Positions 41,011 to 59,750 of a stretch of DNA of 64,000 nucleotides are shown piece after piece (positions within the stretch are counted from its first letter, which is position 1; the number at the start of each line of letters is the position of its first letter). The DNA is taken from positions 868,001 to 932,000 of the forward strand of contig NZ_CP072943.1 of assembly GCF_018069705.1 (NCBI RefSeq), in the 5' to 3' direction. Origin of the DNA: Aminithiophilus ramosus. GTDB lineage: Bacteria > Synergistota > Synergistia > Synergistales > Aminithiophilaceae. The notes under the pieces were generated by a model. The model had not been told where the DNA came from, made no database searches, and was given only the letters and a program-made list of their open reading frames with translations. Made by a program: the position numbers and the translations under genes.

Positions 41011-42327
41011 TCAGTCCGCCATGGCGGCCATATGCTGGTAGAGCTTCCAGCGGTAGGCGTTTTCGGCCCTGGCCCGCTCCAGAAGCCGGGCCGCCTCTTC
41101 GGGGTGGGCCCGCTGGAGGATGCGGTAGCGGTTCTCGCCGTAGATGTAGTCCTCCAGGGGCAGGGAGGGTTCCTTGTTGTCGAGGGTGAGGGGGTTCTTG
41201 CCCTCTTCTCGCCTCCTCGGGTCGTAGCGCATCGTGATCCAGTGGCCCGAGGCGACGGCCTTTTTCTGCTGTTCCAGGCCGTTTTTCAGTTCGATGCCGT
41301 GGGCGATGCAGTGGGCGTAGGCGATGATGATCGACGGGCCGTCGTAGGATTCGGCCTCTCGGAAGGCCTTGACGACCTGGGCGTCGCTGGCGCCCAGGGC
41401 CACGCGCGCCACGTAGACGTTGCCGTAGGCCATGGCCATGAGGGCCAGGTCCTTTTTCATGGCCGGCTTGCCACCGGCGGCGAATTTCGCCACCGCTCCC
41501 ATCGGCGTCGATTTCGACATCTGACCGCCCGTGTTCGAGTAGACTTCCGTGTCCAGGACGAGGACGTTGACGTTTCTGCCCGAGGCCAGGACGTGGTCCA
41601 GGCCGCCGTAGCCGATGTCGTAGGCCCAGCCGTCTCCTCCGAGGATCCAGACGTTTTTGCGGACCAGGACGTCGGCAAGGCTCAGGAGGTCTTTGGCCTT
41701 GGCCTCTTCCCTCCCGGCCAGGTTCGCCTTGAGGCGCGCCACTCTTTCGCGTTGCGCCGCGATTCCCTTTTCGTCGCTCTGGTCGGCGCCGACGAGGTCC
41801 GCGACCAGGCTCTGGCCGACGATCTCTTTCTGGCCTTCGAGCAGTTCGAGGGCGTACTGGAGCTGTTTGTCCAGGGCAAGACGCATGCCCATGCCGAATT
41901 CGGCGTTGTCCTCGAAGAGGGAGTTGGACCAGCTCGGGCCCCGTCCTTCTCCGTCGCTCGTCCAGGGGGTGGTGGGGAGGTTGCCTCCGTAGATGGACGA
42001 GCAGCCCGTGGCGTTGGCGATGAGGGCTCTGTCTCCGAAGAGCTGACTCAGGAGTTTGACGTAGGGCGTCTCTCCGCAGCCGGCGCAGGCGCCGGAGAAT
42101 TCGAAGAGGGGGCGCAGGAGCTGGATGTCTTTGACCGTTCCCAGGTTGAGCTGCCCCCTGTCCATGTCGGGCAGGCTCAGGAAGTAGGTCCAGTTCGCCT
42201 TTTCGCTTTCCCGAAGCGGCGGCTGGGGCACCATGTTGATGGCTTTTTTCCCCTCTTCCTTTTTGCTCCGGGCCGGGCAGTTCTGGACGCAGAGGCTGCA
42301 GCCGGTGCAGTCTTCCGGCGAGATCTG
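41011..42327 (-). pseudogene. nifJ: Pyruvate:ferredoxin oxidoreductase, 3' part cut off by an IS element
   Basis: This is the downstream 437 codons of nifJ. They include the second 4Fe-4S motif (CTGCSLCVQNCPA) and the thiamine-diphosphate domain with CAGCGETPYVKLL, the third-cluster cysteines, GGDGWAYDIGYGGLDHV and NVLVLDTEVYSNTGGQ. Reading resumes at ATCTCGCCG directly after the duplicated CAG. With the 5' part it makes about 1178 residues, the normal NifJ length, so the gene was intact before insertion. Without a start of its own, this part is probably not translated. Confidence 0.92.
42325..42327. repeat. Target-site duplication, left copy (CTG)
   Basis: CTG here and at 43597-43599 flanks the IS element. 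Removing the element and one copy restores the nifJ reading frame exactly. Confidence 0.85.
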
Positions 42328-42414
42328 TATAGTGGACCCCGAAAACTGGACCACGAGCTAAGTTGCAGTTGAAGTCGGGCTGTATCATAGGGTCCCAGAA
42401 AGAGAGGGGACATC

Positions 42415-42699
42415 ATGGCAGCCAAGCGACAGAGGCGTTCAGCGGAGTTCAAAAGCAAAGTGGCCTTCGCTGCCCTGAAAGGGGATAAGACCCTGGCTCA
42501 ATTGTCGGGTGAGTTCGAGGTTTCCGCCGTCCAGATCGGTCAGTGGAAGAAGCAGCTTCTGCAAGGGGGTCCGGAGATCTTTCAACGCAAAGGCACTCCG
42601 ATGGATGTCGAGACGTTGATGGCCCCCCTCTACCAGGAGATCGGTCGGCTCAAGATGGAGCTCGACTGGCTCAAAAAAAAATCAGGCGCTGACGCTTGA
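42415..42699 (+). CDS. IS3-family transposase OrfA
   Basis: A 94-residue protein with the typical helix-turn-helix start (RRSAEFKSKVAFAALKGDKTL, then QLSGEFEVSAVQIGQWKKQLL) and a leucine-zipper-like end (IGRLKMELDWLKKK). It recognises the terminal repeats and is normally joined to OrfB by frameshifting. GAGAGGGG lies before the ATG. Near its end is a run of nine A (42673-42681), a probable slippage site. Confidence 0.92.
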   Translation: MAAKRQRRSAEFKSKVAFAALKGDKTLAQLSGEFEVSAVQIGQWKKQLLQGGPEIFQRKGTPMDVETLMAPLYQEIGRLKMELDWLKKKSGADA

Positions 42700-43546
42700 G
42701 GGAAAGCGGACCTCCATCGATCCCGAGCACCCTTCGATCAGTGTTCGTCGGCAATGTGACCTCCTTGATCTTAACCGGTCCAGCTTCTACTACGCGAGCT
42801 CTTCCGCGACGGAGACGGCGGAGAACCTTGAAATCATGGAGCTCATCGACGGCCGGTACACCTGCGCCCCCTCTTACGGGAGCCGCCGGATGACGGCCTG
42901 GCTGCGTCGACAGGGACAGGACGTGAACCGCAAACGGATCGGACGGCTGATGAGGCTTATGGGGCTCGAAGGGATTGGCCCCAAACCGGGAACCAGCAAG
43001 CCTCACCCCGAACATGAGATTTATCCCTACCTGCTCCGGAACGCCGTCATCGTCAGACCGAATCAGGTCTGGAGCACCGATGTCACCTACCTCCCGATGA
43101 GTGGCGGTTTCATGTACCTCGCGGCCGTCATCGATTGGCACAGCCGCTTCGTCCTCTCCTGGGAACTTTCCAACACCCTGGACGCAGAGTTCTGCGTCGT
43201 CGCCCTCGACAGGGCTCTTCGGCAGGGAACGCCGGAGATCTTCAACACCGACCAGGGCTGTCAGTTCACCAGTAAGGCCTTTCTGTCTCTGCTCAAGGAA
43301 AAGGAGATCCGGATCAGCATGGACGGTCGTGGCAGGGCCCTCGACAACATCTTCGTGGAACGCTTCTGGCGGACCCTCAAGTATGAGTGGCTCTACTTGA
43401 ACGACTATGAGCGGGTCCGCGATCTCCGCTGCGGCCTGCGGGAGTATATGGACTTCTACAACGACGAAAGGCTTCACTCCTCACTGAACTACAGGACACC
43501 GCGGGAGGTTCACTTTGCCGACCGGGAGGGACCGATGGCGGTCTGA
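42683..43546 (+). CDS. IS3-family transposase OrfB (DDE integrase domain)
   Basis: A frame of 287 codons that runs back without a start codon to the A9 run in orfA; the first ATG is at 42836. The N-terminal part (SISVRRQCDLLDLNRSSFYY) and HTH_21-like region (YGSRRMTAWLRRQGQDVNRKR) precede the catalytic core. The DDE triad is present as WSTDVTYL, NTDQGCQFTS and the Glu in ERFWRTLKYE. Relative to orfA it is in the +1 (-2) frame, so a simple -1 ribosomal slip would not connect them; loss of one A by transcriptional slippage would. Confidence 0.9.
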   Translation, partial: QALTLEGKRTSIDPEHPSISVRRQCDLLDLNRSSFYYASSSATETAENLEIMELIDGRYTCAPSYGSRRMTAWLRRQGQDVNRKRIGRLMRLMGLEGIGPKPGTSKPHPEHEIYPYLLRNAVIVRPNQVWSTDVTYLPMSGGFMYLAAVIDWHSRFVLSWELSNTLDAEFCVVALDRALRQGTPEIFNTDQGCQFTSKAFLSLLKEKEIRISMDGRGRALDNIFVERFWRTLKYEWLYLNDYERVRDLRCGLREYMDFYNDERLHSSLNYRTPREVHFADREGPMAV

Positions 43547-43596
43547 CTTTAACTAACTTCGGGCCTCAAATGGTCTTGACAATGGGGTCCACCATA

Positions 43597-43599
43597 CTG
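43597..43599. repeat. Target-site duplication, right copy (CTG)
   Basis: The partner of 42325-42327. Three-base duplications are usual for IS3-family elements. Confidence 0.85.
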
Positions 43600-45819
43600 G
43601 ACGGTGTATTTTTTGTCTTTGAAGGCGGGCCATTTGGCCTCGGCCGATTTGAAGGTCGCAGGCGCGCCCTCCAGCAGGGTGCCGTCGTAGACTTTGGAGC
43701 GGATGACGGCGTGGGGGCAGACGAGGACGCATTTGCCGCACTGGATGCACGTTTCCGGGTCCCACTGGGGGATTTCCATGGCGATGTTGCGCTTTTCCCA
43801 CTGGGTCGTGCCCGTCGGGAAGGTGCCGTCGGCCGTGAGGGCCACGTCTTTGACGGTGAGGCTGTCTCCTTCGTTGGCGAGCATGGGACCCAGGACGGTT
43901 CTGACGAATTCGGGCGCCTCGGCGGGGACGGCGGGTTTCATGGCGAAGGCGCTGGTGACTTCCTTCGGGATTTTGACTTCGTGGAGGTTCGCCACGGAGG
44001 CGTCGACGCAGGCGTAGTTCTTTTTGACGATGGCTTCGCCTTTGTTTCCGTAGGTTTTTTTGATGCTCCGCTTGATGGCTTCGATGGCCTCGTCCTGGGG
44101 GAGGATTCCGCTGATGGCGAAGAAGCAGGTCTGCATGACGGTGTTGATGCGGACGCCCATTCCCGTTTCGTGGGCCACTTTGTAGGCGTCGATGACGTAG
44201 AAGCGGATCTGTTTGTCGATGATTTCTTTCTGCAGTTCCCGCGGCAGACGGTCCCAGACGTCTTCCGGGCCGTAGATGCTGTTGAGGAGGAAGGTGCTTC
44301 CCGAAGCCGCCTGGGCGAGGAGACGGTATTTTTCGACGTAGGTGAAGACGTGGCAGGCGATGAAGTTGGCCTGGCCGATGAGGTAGGACGATCTCAGTTC
44401 TTTCGGGCCGAACCGCAGGTGCGAGACGGTGAGACCTCCGGATTTCTTGGAGTCGTAGACGAAGTAGCCCTGGGCGTAGTTGTCCGTGTCGTCTCCGATG
44501 ATTTTGATGGAGTTTTTGTTGGCCCCCACGGTGCCGTCGGAGCCGATTCCCCAGAAGAGGCAGCGGACGGTTTTTTCGTCTTCCGTGCTGTAGGCGCTGT
44601 CGTAGGCGAGGCTGAGGTGGGTCTGGTCGTCGTCGATGCCGACGACGAAGGGCTGTTGCGGCTGTTCCTTTTTGAGTTCGTCGAGGACGGCTTTGACCAT
44701 GGCCGGCGTGAAGTCTTTCGACGAGAGGCCGTAGCGCCCTCCGATGAGGCGCACCGAGGGGCGCCCGTCGGAGAGGGCCGCTTTGACGTCGAGGTAGAGG
44801 GGCTCTCCCTGGGAGCCCGGCTCTTTGGTGCGGTCGAGGACGGCGACGGAGCGGACGCTCGACGGGAGGGCCGCCAGGAGGTGGGTCGCCGAGAAGGGGC
44901 GGTAGAGGCGCACTTTGACGACGCCCACTTTTTCTCCCGCTTTCATCAGGTGCTCGACCGTTTCGTGGGCCGTTTCGGCTCCGCTTCCCATGAGGATGAC
45001 GACGCGCTCGGCGTCACTGGCTCCGACGTAGTCGAAGAGGTGGTAGCTTCTGCCGACGACGGAGGCGAACCGATCCATGGCGGCCTGGACGTGGCCCGGG
45101 CAGGCTTCGTACCAGGGGTTGGAGGCCTCTCTGGCCTGGAAGTAGTAGTCGGGGTTCTGCGCCGTCCCCCGGATCCGCGGACGGTCCGGCGTGAGGGCCC
45201 TTTCTCTGTGGGCCTGGACGAGGCCGTCGTCGATCATGGCGCGGGCGTCTTCTGCCGTGAGCTGTTCCACTTTCGCCACTTCGTGGGAGGTCCGGAAGCC
45301 GTCGAAGAAGTGGACGAAGGGGACACGCGACGAGAGCGTCGCCGTCTGGGCGATGAGGGCCATGTCCATGGCCTCCTGGACCGATCCCGAGGCCAGAAGG
45401 GCGAAGCCCGTCTGGCGCACGGCCATGACGTCGCCGTGATCGCCGAAGATGGAGAGGGCGTGGGACGCCACGGTGCGGGCCGCGACGTGGATGACCGTCG
45501 ACGTCAGTTCGCCGGCGATCTTGTACATGTTGGGGATCATGAGAAGAAGACCCTGGGAGGCCGTGAAGGTCGTGCCCAGCGATCCGGCCTGGAGCGCCCC
45601 GTGGAGCGCCCCCGCCGCGCCTCCTTCGCTCTGCATTTCCACCACCGAGGGCACCGTGCCCCAGATGTTCGTCCTCCCCTCCGAGGACCACTGGTCCGCC
45701 CATTCGCCCATGTTCGACGACGGCGTGATCGGGTAGATGGCGATCACTTCGTTCGTCAGGTGCGCCGAGTAGGCCGCCGCTTCGTTGCCGTCGATCATGA
45801 CTCTGTGCCTTTCCGTCAT
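43597..45819 (-). pseudogene. nifJ: Pyruvate:ferredoxin oxidoreductase, 5' part cut off by an IS element
   Basis: The first 741 codons of the enzyme that oxidises pyruvate with CoA to acetyl-CoA, CO2 and reduced ferredoxin. The N-terminal domain (IDGNEAAAYSAHLTNEVIAIYPITPSS), the transketolase-like domain II, the EKR region and the first 4Fe-4S motif (CIQCGKCVLVCPHAVIR) are present. The frame reads into the IS for 14 codons and stops, giving a truncated protein that lacks the second cluster motif and the thiamine site. The ATG at 45819 (GAGAGGAG upstream) or the GTG three codons earlier may start it. It follows citF by 64 bases. Confidence 0.92.
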
Positions 45820-45840
45820 TGCCTCCACTCCTCTCCCGAT

Positions 45841-45883: not shown

Positions 45884-47455
45884 TCACTTGACCTGGAAGA
45901 CGCTGTCGATGAGGGTGCCGTCGCGGTACTCGACGACGGCGACGACGCGGTCCGAATCGGGCTCGTTCGGGCGGGGGACTCCCGTGAGAGCCTCGACCTC
46001 CCTCTTGAGGTCGCCGATCTCCTTCACGGGCAGCCGGGCGGAACGGGCCGCCTCGATGAGATCGCTCCTCCGGGGGTTGATGCAGAGGCCCCGCTCGGTG
46101 ACGATGGCGTCGACGGTCTCGCCGGGCGTGACGACGGTCTGGACCCGGTCGAGGATGGAGGGGACGCCGCCGCGGAAGGAGGGGACGACGACGACGGCCA
46201 GCTTGGCCCCGGCCGCCGTGTCGCAGTGGCCGCCCGAGGCGCCGCGGAGCACGCCGTCGTGTCCCGTCATGACGTTGACGTTGAAGGCCACGTCCACCTC
46301 CAGGGCCGCCAGGACGACGACGTCCAGGTTGTGGACGACGCAGCCCCGGTTGAGGGGGTTGGCGTACCAGGACTGGTCGATCTCGATGTGGTTGCCGTTG
46401 CGCACCAGCGAGTCACGGACGGCGGCGTCGAAGCTCTGGACGTCGTAGAGGGCCTCGAAGAGTCCCTCCTCGAGCATCCGGACCATGTAGCCCGTGATCC
46501 CGCCGCAGCCCCAGCTCCCTTTGATTCCCTTCTCCTTCATGTGGTCCCGGACGAAGGCCGCCACGGCCAGGCTGGCTCCTCCGGCGCCGACCTGGAAGGA
46601 GACGCCCGGGGCGAGCAGCCCCGAGGCGGCGATGAGGCGGTAGGCGTCGCGGGCGATCTTGAGGTCCACGGGACTCCGCGTGATCCGCGCCGCCCCGGTG
46701 GCGATCTTCGAGGCGTCTCCCAGGCTCTCGACGACGACGACCTGGTCGACGAGGTACTGGGGGATGGAGACGCGGTTCAGCGGCTGGGGGACGAGGTGGT
46801 CCGTGACGGCCACGACGTGGCGGGCGTGGCGGGCGTCGATCTGGGCGTAGCCCAGGGAGCCGCACCCCGAGGGGCCCAGGGCCCCCGTCAGGTTCCCCTG
46901 GGGATCGCAGGCCGGGGCGGCCAGGAAGGCCACGTCGATGGAGATGGAGCCCTCCTCGATGGCCCGCGCCCTCCCCCCGTGGCTGCGGATGACGACGGGA
47001 AAGGGGACCTCCCCCTTCGAGATGGCCCTGCCCACGGCGCCGCGGACGCCGGAGGTGTGGATCTGGCTCACGACGCCCCGCCGCACCAGGTCGGCCACCC
47101 CGTCGTGGGCGTCGGTCAGGGAGCTGGGGGCGAGGGTGAGGTTTCCGATCCCCATGGCCTCGCATTCGTTCAGGACGGCCATGAGAAGGGCGTCGCCGTT
47201 GCGCAGGTGATGGTGGAAGGAGAGGGTCATGCCGCTCTGAAGGCCCGAGGCCTCGATGGCACGGCGGAGGCTTTCGACGACCTTCGTCTTCCGCGGCATC
47301 GACCCCCGCAGGGGCGGGACGAGGCGGGGCGCCTCGTAGCCCCGCTCGAGGCGGCTCCAGGGGCCCTCGTAGGGATCGAAGGCGCCGAGCCCTTCGATGA
47401 AGGCCGGGACGCGACGTCCCAGCCCGTTGACGACCCGTCCTCTGTCACGTGTCAT
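45884..47455 (-). CDS. citF: Citrate lyase alpha subunit (citrate CoA-transferase)
   Basis: A 523-residue subunit that transfers the acyl-carrier prosthetic group from acetate to citrate. It is full length, from NGLGRRVPAFIEGLGAFDPYEG through SFHHHLRNGD, the GxGG-type loop QVGAGGASLAVAAF and GASGGHCDTAAGAKL to the C-terminal RRSDLIEAA. With CitE and CitD it cleaves citrate to acetate and oxaloacetate in the cytoplasm. Its ATG follows the citE TAG directly, with no gap and in the same frame. The maturation genes (citC, citG, citX) are not in this window. Confidence 0.95.
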   Translation of the reverse strand: MTRDRGRVVNGLGRRVPAFIEGLGAFDPYEGPWSRLERGYEAPRLVPPLRGSMPRKTKVVESLRRAIEASGLQSGMTLSFHHHLRNGDALLMAVLNECEAMGIGNLTLAPSSLTDAHDGVADLVRRGVVSQIHTSGVRGAVGRAISKGEVPFPVVIRSHGGRARAIEEGSISIDVAFLAAPACDPQGNLTGALGPSGCGSLGYAQIDARHARHVVAVTDHLVPQPLNRVSIPQYLVDQVVVVESLGDASKIATGAARITRSPVDLKIARDAYRLIAASGLLAPGVSFQVGAGGASLAVAAFVRDHMKEKGIKGSWGCGGITGYMVRMLEEGLFEALYDVQSFDAAVRDSLVRNGNHIEIDQSWYANPLNRGCVVHNLDVVVLAALEVDVAFNVNVMTGHDGVLRGASGGHCDTAAGAKLAVVVVPSFRGGVPSILDRVQTVVTPGETVDAIVTERGLCINPRRSDLIEAARSARLPVKEIGDLKREVEALTGVPRPNEPDSDRVVAVVEYRDGTLIDSVFQVK

Positions 47456-48328
47456 CTAGAGCACCTCCTCGGCCAGTCGGGCCATCTCGAGGGTGTGAAG
47501 GGCCCGCTTCACCACGGGAGCGTCGACCATCCTGCCGTCGACGGAGACGACGCCTCTGCCCTCGGCCTCGGCGGCCTGGGCCGCCTCGACGATGCGTCGG
47601 GCCCTGACGATCTCCTTGGCCTCGGGGACGAAGGCCTTGTGGATCCACTCGATCTGGCCGGGATGGATGGCCGCCTTGCCCGAAAAGCCCAGGCCGACGA
47701 CGGCCTTCGTCTCCTCCAGGAGTCCTTCGTTGTCGTTCACGTCGGTCCAGACCGTGTCGAAGGCGTCGATCCCCGCGGCGCGGGCCGCCAGGGCCACCAG
47801 GGTCCGGGCCGTGAAGAGTTCCTTCCCCTCGCGGGTCTTCCTCACCCCCATGTCGGCCGTCAGGTCCTGGCCGCCCAGGGTGAGGGCCGTAACGCGGGGA
47901 CAGCAGTCGGCGATGGCCTGGGCGTTGGACAGGCCCCGGGCCGTCTCGATCATGGCGTGGAGCTTCACCGTGCCGACGTCGAGGCCCGACTCCCTCTCCA
48001 GCTCGGCCATGAGGGCGTCGCAGGCCAGGACGTCCTGAGGCGACGAGCACTTGGGCAGACGGACGGCGGCGGGGCGACAGGGGATCACGGCCCGGAGGTC
48101 ACCGTCGAAAAAGGGCGTGTCCGATCCGTTGAGGCGGACCGTGACGACGACCGTGCCGAAGTCGAGGCCCTTCAGGAAGGCGCAGACCAGATCGCGGGCG
48201 CTGTCCTTCTCCGAGAGGGCCACGGCGTCCTCCAGGTCGAGGAGGATGCTGTCGGCCCCGAAGACGGGAGCCTGCTGGATCATGGCCGGGCTGTTGCCGG
48301 GGATGTAGAGCATGGAGCGGAGCCTCAT
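47456..48328 (-). CDS. citE: Citrate lyase beta subunit (citryl-CoA lyase type)
   Basis: A 290-residue TIM-barrel protein of the HpcH/HpaI fold that splits citryl-ACP into oxaloacetate and acetyl-ACP. The start RSMLYIPGNSPAMIQQAPVFGADSI, the acidic metal site DLEDAVALSEKD, and HAMIETARGLSNA and LTLGGQDLTADMG are typical. It overlaps citD by four bases and abuts citF, so the three subunits are translated as one unit in the order D-E-F. Confidence 0.95.
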   Translation of the reverse strand: MRLRSMLYIPGNSPAMIQQAPVFGADSILLDLEDAVALSEKDSARDLVCAFLKGLDFGTVVVTVRLNGSDTPFFDGDLRAVIPCRPAAVRLPKCSSPQDVLACDALMAELERESGLDVGTVKLHAMIETARGLSNAQAIADCCPRVTALTLGGQDLTADMGVRKTREGKELFTARTLVALAARAAGIDAFDTVWTDVNDNEGLLEETKAVVGLGFSGKAAIHPGQIEWIHKAFVPEAKEIVRARRIVEAAQAAEAEGRGVVSVDGRMVDAPVVKRALHTLEMARLAEEVL

Positions 48329-48591
48329 CGCGCGCCTCCCCGGGCCCGGTCCAGGGCCGTGCCGATCCGGGCCCGGAGGGTCAGCTCCAGCGCCCCCTGA
48401 TCCTGGATCTGCACCTTCGCTCCCGTCAGACCCCGCTCTCGCAGGACCGATTCGACGACGGCGCGGTTACGCTCGGCGAAAAGCCCCGCCGTCGCGCCGC
48501 GACACTCCAGCTCCAGCGTCGGCGACGGCGAGACCGTCACGAGACAGTCCGACGACTCCAGCGTTCCCGCCTGGGCGATTGTTTCGATCAT
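48325..48591 (-). CDS. citD: Citrate lyase gamma subunit (acyl carrier protein)
   Basis: An 88-residue carrier protein. The serine that takes the phosphoribosyl-dephospho-CoA arm lies in AGTLESSDCLVTV, matching the GTLESGD motif of known CitD proteins. The C-terminal half (VQIQDQGALELTLRARIGTAL) is also typical. The ATG at 48591 is chosen over a GTG three codons earlier because GGAGG is then eight bases away. It follows icd after about 90 bases that hold a strong hairpin. Confidence 0.92.
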   Translation of the reverse strand: MIETIAQAGTLESSDCLVTVSPSPTLELECRGATAGLFAERNRAVVESVLRERGLTGAKVQIQDQGALELTLRARIGTALDRARGGAR

Positions 48592-48607
48592 GAAAGACAC
48601 CTCCAGA

Positions 48608-48679: not shown

Positions 48680-49942
48680 CTACATCTTGTCGCAGATGGC
48701 CTCGGCGAATCGGGAACAGGAGACCTCCTGGGCCCCCTGACGCTGACGGGCCAGGTCGTAGGTGACGATGCCCTCGCTGATGGCCTTCTCCATGCCGCCG
48801 ACGATGAGGTCGGCGGCCTCCTGCCAGCCCAGGTGCTCCACCATGAGGACGGCCGAGAGGATGAGAGAGCCCGGGTTGACCTTGTCCTGGCCGGCGTATT
48901 TGGGCACCGTCCCGTGAGTGGCCTCGAAGAAGGCCACCTCGTCGTTCATGTTCGCTCCGGGGGCCAGACCCAGGCCTCCGACGGAGGCGGCCAGGGCGTC
49001 GGAGATGTAGTCGCCGTTCAGGTTGGCCGTGGCCAGCACGTCGTACTCGGCGGGGCGGAGGAGGATCTGCTGGAACATGGCGTCGGCGATGCGGTCCTTG
49101 ACGACGATCTTCCCCTCGGGGCACTTCCCGCCGTAGGTCCCGAAGAGCTCCTCTTCGGTGATGCAGACGGAGCCGAACTCCTCGCGGGCCACTTCGTAGC
49201 CCCACTTGCGGAAGGCCCCTTCGGTGAACTTCATGATATTGCCCTTGTGGACGAGCGTCACCGAGGGACGTTTGTGGTCGACGGCGTACTGGATGGCCAT
49301 GCGGACCAGGCGCTTCGTCCCCGTGATGGAGATGGGCTTGATGCCGATGCCCGAGTCGTCGCGGAACTGCCTGGCCCCCATCTCCTCCTTGATGAAGCGG
49401 ATCATCTTCTCGCAGGCGGCCGTCCCCTGTTCCCACTCGATGCCGGCGTAGAGGTCCTCCGTGTTCTCGCGGAAGATGACCATGTCCACGTCCTGAGGGC
49501 GCTTGAGAGGGGCCGGGACGCCGTCGAACCAGCGCACGGGCCGGACGCAGGCGTAGAGGTCCAGGACCTGGCGGAAGGCGACGTTGAGGCTTCGGAAGCC
49601 GCCGCCGACGGGGGTGGTCAGGGGACCCTTGATGCCGATGCGGAAGTACCGGAGGGCGGCGAAGGAGTCGTCGGGGATGGCCGTGTCGTAGAGCCCCATG
49701 GCCTTCTCACCGGCGAAGATCTCCCACCAGGCGAGACGGCGTCGGGTGCCGTAGGCCTTCCTGACGGCGCAGTCGACGACGGCCTTCATGGCCGGCGTGA
49801 TGTCGACGCCGATCCCGTCGCCCTCGACGTAGGGGATGACGGGCTCGTCGGGAACGACGAGGCGCCCCCCCTTCACTTCGATTCTCTCGCCCCGTTCGGG
49901 CTCCTTGTAGTTCTTCAGCTCCAGGTCGGCAAAACGGCTCAT
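48680..49942 (-). CDS. icd: NADP+-dependent isocitrate dehydrogenase
   Basis: A 420-residue enzyme very close in layout to E. coli Icd. The substrate loop [13 protein letters not shown] holds the regulatory-type serine, and [20 protein letters not shown] and [13 protein letters not shown] are conserved. NADP specificity is supported by [13 protein letters not shown] (the Lys-Tyr pair) and by Tyr and Arg in VTYDLAR. It interconverts isocitrate and 2-oxoglutarate plus CO2; its place between aconitase and citrate lyase suggests the reductive direction here. The ATG at 49942 is chosen because AGGAGG then lies nine bases upstream; an earlier in-frame ATG touches the ribosome site. Confidence 0.96.
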
Positions 49943-49983
49943 GCAAATCATCCTCCTCGGAGAATAGGGGGCGAGTTTTCCTT

Positions 49984-50045: not shown

Positions 50046-51995
50046 TTAGAAGGAAGGAACGGCCAGACGCTCCTTCACGTAATTGAGCTTGCCTCCTGCC
50101 TTGACGACGTCGAGATCTTCCTGCCCCAGCGGCGTTTTGCAGGCGATGGGCCTATCTTTCGTCTCGTTTCTGATGATGAACGCCCCCCCGGCCAGAAGAT
50201 GCTCCGTCTCCAGCGAAAGATGGTCACCCTGATCGATGCCGTCGTAATCGGATTCATCGACGAAGGTCAGGGGAAGGATGCCGAAGTTGACCAGGTTGGC
50301 CAGATGAATGCGGGCGAAGCTTTTGACGATGACGGCGCGCACGCCGAGATAGCGCGGGGCGATGGCGGCATGCTCCCGGCTCGAACCCTGCCCGTAGTTG
50401 GCCCCTCCGACGACGAAGCCGCTCCCCGCCTCTTTGGCCCTGGCGGGAAAAGAGGCGTCGACGACTTCGAAGACATGTTCGGCGATGGCGGGGATGTTGG
50501 AGCGCAGGGGGAGGATCTTGGCCCCGGCGGGCATGATGTGGTCCGTCGTGATGTCGTCGCCCACCTTGAGGAGGACCTCGCCCCGGACGGTGGCCTCCAT
50601 GGCCTTCATCTCGGGCAGGGGGGCGATGTTGGGACCACGGCGGATGACGATCGTCTCCGGCTCCGGAGAGGGCGCCTCGAAAAGACCGTCATCGATGAGG
50701 AACGTCTCGGGCATGGAGAAGCGGAAGGGCTCCAGTCCCCGGTCCCGGGCAAAGGCACGGGGATCGGTGAGGACGCCCGTGACGGCCGAGGCGGCGGCGA
50801 CTTCGGGGCTGACGAGGTAGACCTTGCCCGTCTTGTGGCCGCAGCGGCCCAGGAAGTTGCGGTTGATCGTCCGCAGCGAAACGCCCTCCGTGGGAGGGGC
50901 GAATCCCATGCCGATGCAGGCGCCGCAGCTCACCTCGAGGAGGCGCACGCCGGCGCGGATCATCTTCGAAAGGGCTCCCCGCTCCGTGGCCTCGAGGAGA
51001 ACCTGCCGGCTTCCGGGTGAAATGCCGGCGTCGACGGAAGAGGCGATCTTCTGTCCGTCGAGAAGATGGCCGATGGAGAGAAGATCGCGCAGGGAGGAGT
51101 TGGTGCAGGAGCCGAACATGACCTGGTCGATGGCCATGCCCTCCAGCGCGGAGACCCTGACGACCTTGCCTGGCTGGAAGGGTTGGGCCACCATCGGCTC
51201 CAGCTCCGAGAGGTCGATGTCGATGATCTCATCGTAGCGGGCGTCGTCGTCGGCGGAAAGTTCCACCCAGGAGGACTCCCGCCCCTGAGAGCGGAGCCAG
51301 CGGCGCGTCACCTCGTCGCTGGGGAAGACAGACGACGTGGCACCCGTCTCGGCGCCCATGTTGGTGATCGTCGCCCGATCGGGGACGGAGAGGTTCTTCA
51401 CGCCGGGGCCGAAATACTCGATGATCTTGCCCACACCGCCGTTGACGTCGGTGTGGCGGAGCACTTCGAGGATGACGTCCTTGGCCGAGACGAAGGGCTG
51501 AAGGGTTCCGACGAGGCGGACGCCGAGAAGGGCCGGCATGGGGAGACAGAAGGGCTCGCCGGCCATGGCCAGGGCCACGTCAAGCCCCCCGGCTCCGATG
51601 GCGAGCATACCCACGGCGCTGGACGTGGGAGTATGGGAGTCGCTGCCGATGAGGGTTTTACCCGGCTCGGCGAAACGCTCGACGTGAAGCTGGTGACAGA
51701 TGCCGTTCCCCGGAGGGGAGAAGATGCTCCCGTGGCGAGCCGCCACGTCCTGGAGGTAACGGTGATCGTCGGGGTTGCGATAGTCTCCCTGAATCATGTT
51801 GTGGTCGACGTAGCTGACGGACCTTTCCGTCCTCACGCGGGCGACGCCCATGGCCTCGAACTCGAGGTAGGCCAGCGTCCCCGTGGCGTCCTGCGTCAGC
51901 GTCTGGTCCATGCGAAGGGCGATCCTCTCTCCGCGCCGCATCTCTCCCTCGACGAGGTGGGTCCTGATGATTTTCTCCGCGACAGTTCTGCCCAT
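50046..51995 (-). CDS. Aconitate hydratase, short (AcnA/IPMI-like) form
   Basis: A 649-residue [4Fe-4S] enzyme that interconverts citrate and isocitrate. The cluster cysteines appear in FGSCTNSS and [10 protein letters not shown], and other signatures are [30 protein letters not shown] and, in the swivel domain, [13 protein letters not shown]. It is shorter than classical AcnA (about 890 residues) and resembles the roughly 640-residue aconitases of anaerobes; homoaconitase or isopropylmalate isomerase activity is less likely given the icd and cit neighbours. The ATG has AGGAGGG upstream. It is the first gene after the two cobalamin riboswitches. Confidence 0.9.
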
Positions 51996-52128: not shown

Positions 52129-52158
52129 AAAAAAGAGAGCCTCTTTTCGAGACTCTCT
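52129..52158 (-). terminator. Intrinsic terminator of the promoter-distal cobalamin riboswitch
   Basis: On the minus strand AGAGAGTCTC-GAAAA-GAGGCTCTCT (10 bp, one U-G pair) followed by six T. It stands about 100 bases after the aptamer and 134 bases before the aconitase gene, so it is the likely gene-off state. Confidence 0.8.
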
Positions 52159-52259
52159 CCTGGGGGCACGCGGCCGGACATCCCCTCCTTCTCCGAACGA
52201 GACGAAAGAGGAACCCCAGGCGAGAGTTCGAACGCCGCGAACCTTCACCTTTCGCGCCG

Positions 52260-52394
52260 CCAGGCCGGTCTCCTGGCTCCCCTTCATCCTCCGCCGACCT
52301 TCCCGCCCTCGAAAGGGCAGTGGCATCCCGGCTTCGTCGAGGTCACAGTGGCGGGTCCGCGCCGGATTCGCACCGGTCTTCCCGTTCACCTGAC
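52260..52394 (-). ncRNA. Cobalamin riboswitch, promoter-distal copy
   Basis: On the minus strand the aptamer reads in order: GGTGAACGGGAA, the paired GACCGG/CCGG arm, GCGGACCCGCCACTGT, GCCACTG, GGGAAGG, GGAGGATGA and the B12-box core AGCCAGGAGACCGGCC. These are the conserved blocks of AdoCbl/cobalamin riboswitches. It is followed by a terminator and then by aconitase. Cobalamin binding would be expected to favour termination. Compared with the upstream copy it differs at one base across the ~135-base aptamer. Confidence 0.95.
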
Positions 52395-52444
52395 GGCGTT
52401 TTCTTTATCTTTCCGATAGGTCTTTCGCTGGTCCGAAACGAACG

Positions 52445-52479
52445 AAAAAGGGGGGAGTCCGCAACGGACTCCCCCCTTT
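52445..52479 (-). terminator. Intrinsic terminator of the promoter-proximal cobalamin riboswitch
   Basis: On the minus strand a perfect 15-bp stem (52465-52479 with 52447-52461), 3-base loop, and a run of T. It lies between the two aptamers, so transcripts stopped here never reach the second one. Confidence 0.88.
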
Positions 52480-52563
52480 AAGGGCACGCCAGACAAAGAG
52501 CTCCTCAAAGGGCTCTCCGCCAGACGAACGTCCGATCTCCGCGAACTGTCTGCTGACCTTCTC

Positions 52564-52698
52564 CCAGGCCGGTCTCCTGGCTCCCCTTCATCCTCCGCCG
52601 ACCTTCCCGCCCTCGAAAGGGCAGTGGCATCTCGGCTTCGTCGAGGTCACAGTGGCGGGTCCGCGCCGGATTCGCACCGGTCTTCCCGTTCACCTGAG
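52564..52698 (-). ncRNA. Cobalamin riboswitch, promoter-proximal copy
   Basis: The same aptamer as at 52260-52394, shifted by exactly 304 bases with no insertion or deletion and a single base change (GATGCC versus GAGATG context: CCC to CTC on the plus strand). All conserved blocks, including the B12 box, are intact. It begins about 30 bases after the predicted transcription start. Its own terminator follows. Confidence 0.95.
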
Positions 52699-52735
52699 AG
52701 AATCATCTTTTGAGTTTAATTCACTGACCGCCGTG

Positions 52736-52764
52736 AGTATGAAAGAACCGGAGAAAAATGTCAA
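52736..52764 (-). promoter_or_regulatory. Promoter of the riboswitch-controlled acn-icd-cit cluster
   Basis: On the minus strand a perfect TTGACA, 17 bases, CATACT. The leader that follows is about 730 bases and holds both riboswitches. Confidence 0.75.
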
Positions 52765-58865: not shown

Positions 58866-59750
58866 TCAGTCGTTTCGGAGGAGGAAGCGGACGGCGACGC
58901 GCACCTTCGGCCCCAGGCCGGGGCGGAAGCGCCACTGGGTCAGGGCCTTTCGGGCCGACTCGTCGAGAAGGGAGAAGGAACTGCTCACCTCGACCTCCGC
59001 CGCGACGACGGCACCACGGATATCGAGAGTCGCCACGACGACGACCTCTCCCTCCTCTTTCCTGCGGCGCGAGGCCAGGGGATAGAGGGGCTCGACGCGG
59101 CGGACGATATCGGCCGCTCCGGCCGTGACGACGTCGTCCGCGGAAGCGCCGGGTGACGTCGGGGCCCCTCCTTCCATGTCCCTTGACGGCAGCCGCTCCG
59201 GGAACGAGGAAGAAAGGGCCCTCGCCGCCGACGATCCCTCCACCCTTTCAGACGAGGAAGGAGAGACCGCGGCCTCGTGTTTTCTCTCGGCCTTGGCGTC
59301 GGGTTTCGGTTCGGGTTTCGGTTCGGGTTTCGGTTCGGGTTTCGGTTCGGGTTTCGGTTCGGGTTTCGGTTCGGGTTTCGGTTCGGGTTTCGGTTCGGGT
59401 TTCGGTTCGGGTTTCGGTTCGGGCTTCGGTTCAGGTTTCGGTTCGGGTTTCGGTTCGGGCTTCGGCTCAGGTCTCGGTTCAGGTCTCGGTTCGGGTTTCG
59501 GTTCGGGTTCGGGTTTCTGCGGCCCCTCTTCGGGCTCGACCACGCTCTCCCGTGGGCGATTCCCCTTTTCCCCGTCGACCTCACCCTGGGAAGAGACCTC
59601 CTCTGCAGGGCCCGAGGAGGCGGCCAGGCGCAGCGTCAGGGTGGGCACGACAGGCGAGGGCCTTTCCGGGACAGGCAGACGCAGAAGAACGGCCAGACAG
59701 AGGAGATGGAGGAGAAGGCTCGCGGCGAGAGGCAGAGGCCAGCGTTTCAC
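58866..59750 (-). CDS. tonB: TonB energy-transducing protein with long Lys-Pro-Glu-Pro repeat
   Basis: A 294-residue protein with an N-terminal membrane helix ([13 protein letters not shown]), a periplasmic spacer of about 17 KPEP units (residues about 77-150), a low-complexity segment and the C-terminal TonB domain ([22 protein letters not shown], ending [10 protein letters not shown]). It couples the proton gradient to outer-membrane receptors, which also shows that the cell has an outer membrane. It overlaps exbD by four bases. The spacer is built from a nearly perfect 12-bp DNA repeat. Confidence 0.92.
59299..59515. repeat. 12-bp tandem repeat coding for the TonB KPEP spacer
   Basis: About 17 copies of the unit GGTTCGGGTTTC (plus strand), mostly identical with a few third-base changes near the 3' side. 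Multiples of 12 bp keep the frame, so copy number can change without destroying TonB. Confidence 0.95.

Follow-up and report, generated by a model that had tools for sequence, protein, structure and literature searches.

We consider it likely, from comparative analysis of the sequence, that the acn leader of Aminithiophilus ramosus forms a pseudo-cooperative cobalamin OFF switch of the tandem type, which arose by an old duplication, has since undergone gene conversion confined to its aptamers, and would shut off a B12-free route from 2-oxoglutarate. The window (the whole stretch of DNA analyzed, 64,000 nt) belongs to the genome of an anaerobic member of the Synergistota, assembled as one contig of 3.11 Mb and called G000 below, and coordinates given without a genome name are window positions.

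Anatomy of the tandem leader

A cmscan search of the window identifies, on the minus strand, two full-length class I cobalamin riboswitches (RF00174) that follow one another downstream of a single promoter. Both matches span model positions 1-189 and lie well above the gathering score of 31.5, and no other Rfam match in the window reaches its gathering score. The elements of the leader, in the order of transcription, are as follows:

52736..52764, minus strand, promoter TTGACA-17-CATACT, the sole promoter-like site in the leader
52550..52712, minus strand, aptamer 1 (RF00174; 98.0 bits, E 3e-23)
52529..52547, minus strand, P13-like hairpin of platform 1, AGUUCG/CGGACG, whose 3' strand is also the 5' strand of antiterminator 1
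52465..52536, minus strand, antiterminator 1, AUCGGAC (52536-52530) with GUCCG of the terminator 5' arm, enclosing an inner hairpin CCCUU/AAGGG
52445..52479, minus strand, terminator 1, stem of 12-15 pairs (52479-52447) followed by a U-run (-27 kcal/mol, z -5.7)
52246..52408, minus strand, aptamer 2 (RF00174; 93.2 bits, E 7e-22)
52225..52243, minus strand, P13-like hairpin of platform 2, GGUUCG/CGAACU
52153..52226, minus strand, antiterminator 2, CUCUCGCCUGGGG (52226-52214) with CCCCAGGAGAGAG (52165-52153), 12/13 pairs
52129..52161, minus strand, terminator 2, stem of 13 pairs (52161-52131) followed by a U-run (-19 kcal/mol, z -3.0)

When 52698-52564 is compared in register with 52394-52260 (offset 304), the two copies differ by a single mismatch, A at 52632 vs. 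G at 52328 in the transcript sense, which together with the covariance-model matches bears out the pair of near-identical cobalamin riboswitches reported in the first-pass annotation. Near-identity is confined to the aptamer core, 132-135 nt long, and identity between the copies drops to background within a few bases of the core on both sides. The outer P1 helix differs in sequence between the copies, yet 10/10 pairs form in each. Since the remaining B12 aptamers of the genome are only 65-77% identical to the tandem aptamers, the 99% identity of the two copies is not an ordinary family resemblance.

A consensus scan of the leader finds one promoter, where 0.1 would be expected, and none between the two switches, which places both riboswitches on one transcript as far as such a scan can tell. 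An identical -35/-10 layout precedes the acn riboswitches of two relatives, the diverged congener G003 and G107, a member of another family. No gene-length reading frame is supported between the riboswitches, and each of them has its own expression platform, which is the arrangement of a pseudo-cooperative tandem. Tandem glycine riboswitches are cooperative and consist of two aptamers that share one platform; the present leader resembles them in having two similar aptamers in series and differs in that each aptamer has its own platform, with two terminators and separate antiterminators.

Both terminators are revealed by folding and were missed by an automatic terminator scan, apparently because the U-run is shortened by A-U pairs that extend the stem. 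Both platforms start with a similar P13/L13-like hairpin (UUCGCGG..UCG.AC), and 65 of 126 aligned positions are equal between them. The view that the terminators and linkers are unrelated in sequence therefore holds beyond this hairpin, but not at the hairpin itself, which follows both aptamers in the window genome and in G003 alike. The L5 sequence GCGAA of the window is complementary to the UUCGC after the aptamer, a match that may reflect the L5-L13 kissing loop by which cobalamin riboswitches connect aptamer and platform.

Antiterminator 1 differs from the plain minimum-energy fold in the window, and its outer pairs are weaker there (6/7) than in G003 (8/8), where the counterpart is a perfect 8-mer, AUCGGACU/AGUCCGAU. 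Antiterminator 2 occupies the 5' arm of terminator 2, retains 12/13 pairs in G003 with two wobble changes, and is the predicted fold of platform 2 transcripts that end before the 3' arm of the terminator. The single acn riboswitch of G107 has the same layout, with 13/15 antiterminator pairs and a promoter of the same sequence type. Because the antiterminators compete with the terminators, we read both switches as terminator-type OFF switches, with ligand binding and switching direction presumed from the riboswitch class. Two such switches behind a single promoter mean that a transcript must pass both in order to reach acn, in agreement with what had been proposed for this leader.

It is also important to consider that near-identical copies could arise in assembly, a concern raised in the first-pass annotation. 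The separate complete genome of strain L-13 (CP074691.1) has the same 1146-nt leader with one SNP at 52750, so the tandem is not an assembly artefact, and a homologous tandem occurs in G003.

The target operon and its relation to B12

The target is the whole acn-icd-citDEF operon rather than aconitase alone, which was the gene originally named:

50046..51995, minus strand, acn, aconitate hydratase, 649 aa (NF005558 above cut-off)
48680..49951, minus strand, icd, NADP-type isocitrate dehydrogenase, 423 aa (TIGR00183 above cut-off)
48325..48600, minus strand, citD, citrate lyase acyl carrier protein, 91 aa (PF06857)
47456..48328, minus strand, citE, citrate lyase beta subunit, 290 aa (best NCBIfam citE model TIGR01588 at 327 bits, below its cut-off of 443)
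45884..47455, minus strand, citF, citrate lyase alpha subunit, 523 aa (TIGR01584 above cut-off)
43549..45828, minus strand, pyruvate:ferredoxin oxidoreductase gene, interrupted by an inserted element at 43597

The pyruvate:ferredoxin oxidoreductase gene is probably the last gene of the operon. It is intact in strain L-13 (1181 aa) and is split in the window by a 1.27 kb, insertion-sequence-like insertion at 42325-43597 with the ends TGGTGGACCCC...GGGGTCCACTA. Elsewhere in the window, the minus strand of 58866-59750 encodes a 294-aa protein with a long KPEP repeat run between its N- and C-terminal parts, a TonB-like layout.

Citrate synthase (PF00285) has no match in G000, G001, G002, G107 or G021. 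Without a citrate synthase of this family, acn-icd-citDEF would most easily run from 2-oxoglutarate through citrate to acetate and oxaloacetate. This route needs no B12, and the conversion of succinyl-CoA to propionate needs methylmalonyl-CoA mutase, an enzyme that is present in G000. Most likely, B12 represses the B12-free route: when B12 is plentiful, the path from 2-oxoglutarate to isocitrate, citrate and finally acetate plus oxaloacetate would be shut, and flux would be left to the B12-dependent mutase. In G021 the methylmalonyl-CoA mutase operon (G021:C29:20087-23674), which encodes two subunits behind a B12 riboswitch with a terminator, lies next to the acn operon and diverges from it, the acn operon having a separate B12 riboswitch, and the two pathways therefore appear tied together.

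The mutase operon of G000 (G000:C1:2365809 on; L166:1310-7083) encodes a two-subunit methylmalonyl-CoA mutase and meaB behind a B12 riboswitch with a terminator. A simple scheme in which a B12-free route replaces a B12-dependent one is strained by this arrangement, since a B12 switch also precedes the B12-dependent mutase. A cobalamin riboswitch of mutA is known in Veillonella parvula (PMC9600662). The location of the mutase, as well as the reversibility of the enzymes of the operon, leaves some room for a different role, in which the operon supplies 2-oxoglutarate to glutamate synthesis or serves the uptake of citrate, with another reason for its control by B12. We regard this role as less likely, as it has to contend with the absence of PF00285 from the five genomes named above and with citrate lyase genes in the very same operon. 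Glutamate mutase was also considered as the B12-dependent partner pathway and was rejected, as PF06368 is without matches in 21 genomes, a result for which the control for that family was weak.

The repression of a B12-free route by B12 would resemble the cobalamin riboswitches over B12-independent isozymes, as for metE vs. metH (PMC9600662), in that B12 would repress substitutes for a B12-dependent step. The present case differs from these in that a pathway branch (aconitase, isocitrate dehydrogenase and citrate lyase) would be controlled instead of an isozyme, by a logic that we infer from gene content. Other B12 riboswitches of G000 are found ahead of the methylmalonyl-CoA mutase-meaB operon, an iron alcohol dehydrogenase locus, transport or cobalamin genes, and two glycyl-radical enzyme/microcompartment loci. 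The region G000:C1:2621000-2636000 (L165) contains two glycyl-radical enzymes and microcompartment shell proteins, with B12 riboswitches nearby at 2629368 and 2633680; these enzymes are probably B12-independent and repressed by B12.

Across the Synergistota, a cobalamin riboswitch is found in the acn leaders of G000, G001, G003, G107, G123, G021, G173, G174 and G175, and none is found in those of G002, G014, G017, G018, G019, G023, G182, G183, G185 and G008 (the last two on short contigs). Two riboswitches precede acn in the genus of the window only, with no more than one in any of the remaining leaders that were found. The single form, which the first-pass annotation did not mention, occurs in several other genera, and the most economical history starts from a lone riboswitch ahead of acn, later duplicated in the genus of the window. 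B12 status is in this way linked to aconitase, isocitrate dehydrogenase and citrate lyase in several Synergistota genera, which suggests a B12-free route for the fermentation of amino acids by way of 2-oxoglutarate. No report of riboswitch control of aconitase and citrate lyase was found in the literature searched.

Concerted evolution of the aptamer cores

The congener G003 carries two riboswitches (G003:C60:93009-93172 and 93270-93471), with the same M24 peptidase/rubredoxin genes on one side and, on the other, an acn fragment that is cut by the contig end. Platform 1 of the window agrees with platform 1 of G003 at 78/117 positions and platform 2 with platform 2 at 95/135, while the likeness of platform 1 to platform 2 is only about half. 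Because G003 shares the tandem, including its two distinct platforms and their order, the duplication is old and evidently predates the split between the species of the window and G003. Comparison of the acn leaders of relatives, which had been suggested as a way of dating the duplication, thus makes the tandem older than this split. Of the two origins originally offered, a recent duplication or a gene conversion of the aptamer alone, the platforms that are orthologous by position reject the former and leave the latter.

The aptamers behave differently from their platforms. They are about 99% alike within each genome and about 82% alike between the window genome and G003, and the two G003 cores, like those of the window, are one base apart. 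Aligned together, the four cores show 109 invariant columns and 21 at which the two copies of a genome agree but the genomes differ; no column splits copy 1 from copy 2 across the genomes, and there are two singletons and one gap besides. A tree of 17 aptamers likewise pairs each copy with its partner from the same genome (100/97 and 94/89). This pattern, 21 sites against 0 in the cores with platforms that are orthologous by position, is that of concerted evolution in two well-separated species. It points to homogenization of the aptamer cores within each lineage since the split, most simply by gene conversion. The exchange evidently ends where the platforms have diverged, and the outer P1 helices, antiterminators and terminators evolved separately while the cores stayed nearly identical.

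Homogenization could also come about by unequal crossing-over, as recombination is possible between the 132-nt direct repeats, which lie 304 nt apart, and cycles of loss and gain of whole units likewise homogenize repeats. However, copy number (two) and platform order are constant in G000, G001 and G003, and neither a one-copy nor a three-copy state is seen among these three members of the genus, which makes crossing-over unlikely relative to conversion. That the aptamer was instead freshly duplicated within each species, as the one-base difference between copies in both genomes might suggest, is very improbable, since the platforms and outer P1 flanks are orthologous by position and the leader already had two units when the species split; a new copy inserted exactly between the old flanks in both lineages would in effect be gene conversion.

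Exchange with the other B12 riboswitches of G000 is rejected, as their aptamers form another group in the tree. A general homogenization of tandem cobalamin riboswitches is rejected as well, as two other same-strand cobalamin pairs found in the phylum, in G146 and G145, are 59% and 71% identical and neither is homogenized.

The genome also has a second, riboswitch-free acn-icd-citDEF operon (G000:C1:2672366-2678540; L140:6367-12540), to which the first-pass annotation made no reference. At the DNA level its icd and citDEF are 99.7-99.8% identical to the window copy, its acn is 83% identical in a patchy manner, and its leader and spacers are unlike those of the window. The acn tree places the window acn as sister to that of G107 (100/99) and the second acn as sister to that of G002 (100/99). 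The copies of the operon evidently also underwent gene conversion, in this case tracking gene boundaries. The two acn contigs of G003 share a 141-nt terminal stretch, as expected if the assembler met a longer repeat.

The predicted joint response and other tandem riboswitches

In the proposed mechanism, transcription from the one promoter would lead through two independent class I cobalamin riboswitches before acn. Binding of adenosylcobalamin (or another accepted corrinoid) to an aptamer would hold the adjoining P13 hairpin, the 3' strand of which would then be unavailable to the antiterminator, and the terminator would form. In the ligand-free state the antiterminator would capture the 5' arm of the terminator and RNA polymerase would continue, such that read-through to acn-icd-citDEF would require a "go" at both switches. 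For equal, independent OFF switches read-through would scale as approximately (1+x)^-2, with the half-point expected to move to 0.41 K, the 90-to-10% range expected to span 40-fold instead of 81-fold, and the residual leak squared. Both a lower threshold and a steeper response would follow from this arithmetic, the steepening being modest.

Published work reads such tandems as giving a sharper response or less leakage and terms them pseudo-cooperative (PMC9481103). Another study argues that OFF tandems of independent switches mainly lower the threshold (PMC545781).

Such a joint response would be lost if only one riboswitch were functional and the other a passive repeat, or if the two differed in kinetics or in corrinoid preference. 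The platforms differ strongly, so the folding kinetics of the two switches may differ, cobalamin riboswitches vary in corrinoid selectivity (PMC9600662), and the P1 of copy 2 in G003, with 2/10 mispairs, favors a single functional switch. On the other hand, complete aptamers, terminators and antiterminators are retained in both copies by two species, and the near-identical cores argue against a difference in ligand selectivity; we find it improbable that no joint response is produced.

If both switches do act together, a tentative further reading, which we put forward as possible, is that recurrent gene conversion, selected for equal affinity, keeps the sensors identical while the platforms diverge, the pair forming one sharpened B12 switch over the B12-free 2-oxoglutarate branch. 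The homogenization in this reading is seen directly in the alignment of cores; selection for matched affinity may have favored it, and the role in the pathway may be as described.

Tandem riboswitches of this type were reportedly described by Sudarsan et al. in 2006. The architecture itself is not new, as same-class AdoCbl tandems are known and 26 doublets have been counted (PMC9481103). Like those doublets, the acn leader has two complete riboswitches of the same class, each with its own platform, before one operon; unlike them, its cores are 99% identical and homogenized in each species, and its target is acn-icd-citDEF. The tandem TPP riboswitches of Desulfovibrio thiSGHFE are similar in that two same-class switches stand in series, each followed by a terminator; they respond to a different ligand, and homogenization is not described in the accessible part of that paper (PMC545781). 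The evolutionary signature of the acn leader is unusually clear and makes it a clear case of concerted evolution restricted to a riboswitch aptamer, a phenomenon of which no report, either as concerted evolution or as gene conversion, was found in the literature searched.

The reason for same-ligand tandems is debated between a sharper response and a merely shifted threshold. Because near-identical sensors here sit on two different platforms, the locus is a natural test in which the contribution of each platform is measurable with the sensor held constant. Elsewhere in the phylum, a stretch of 4 kb in G152 (G152:C198:1-6500; L181) has three same-strand cobalamin riboswitches, of which two are 91% identical; their spacing is wider, at 598 nt and more.
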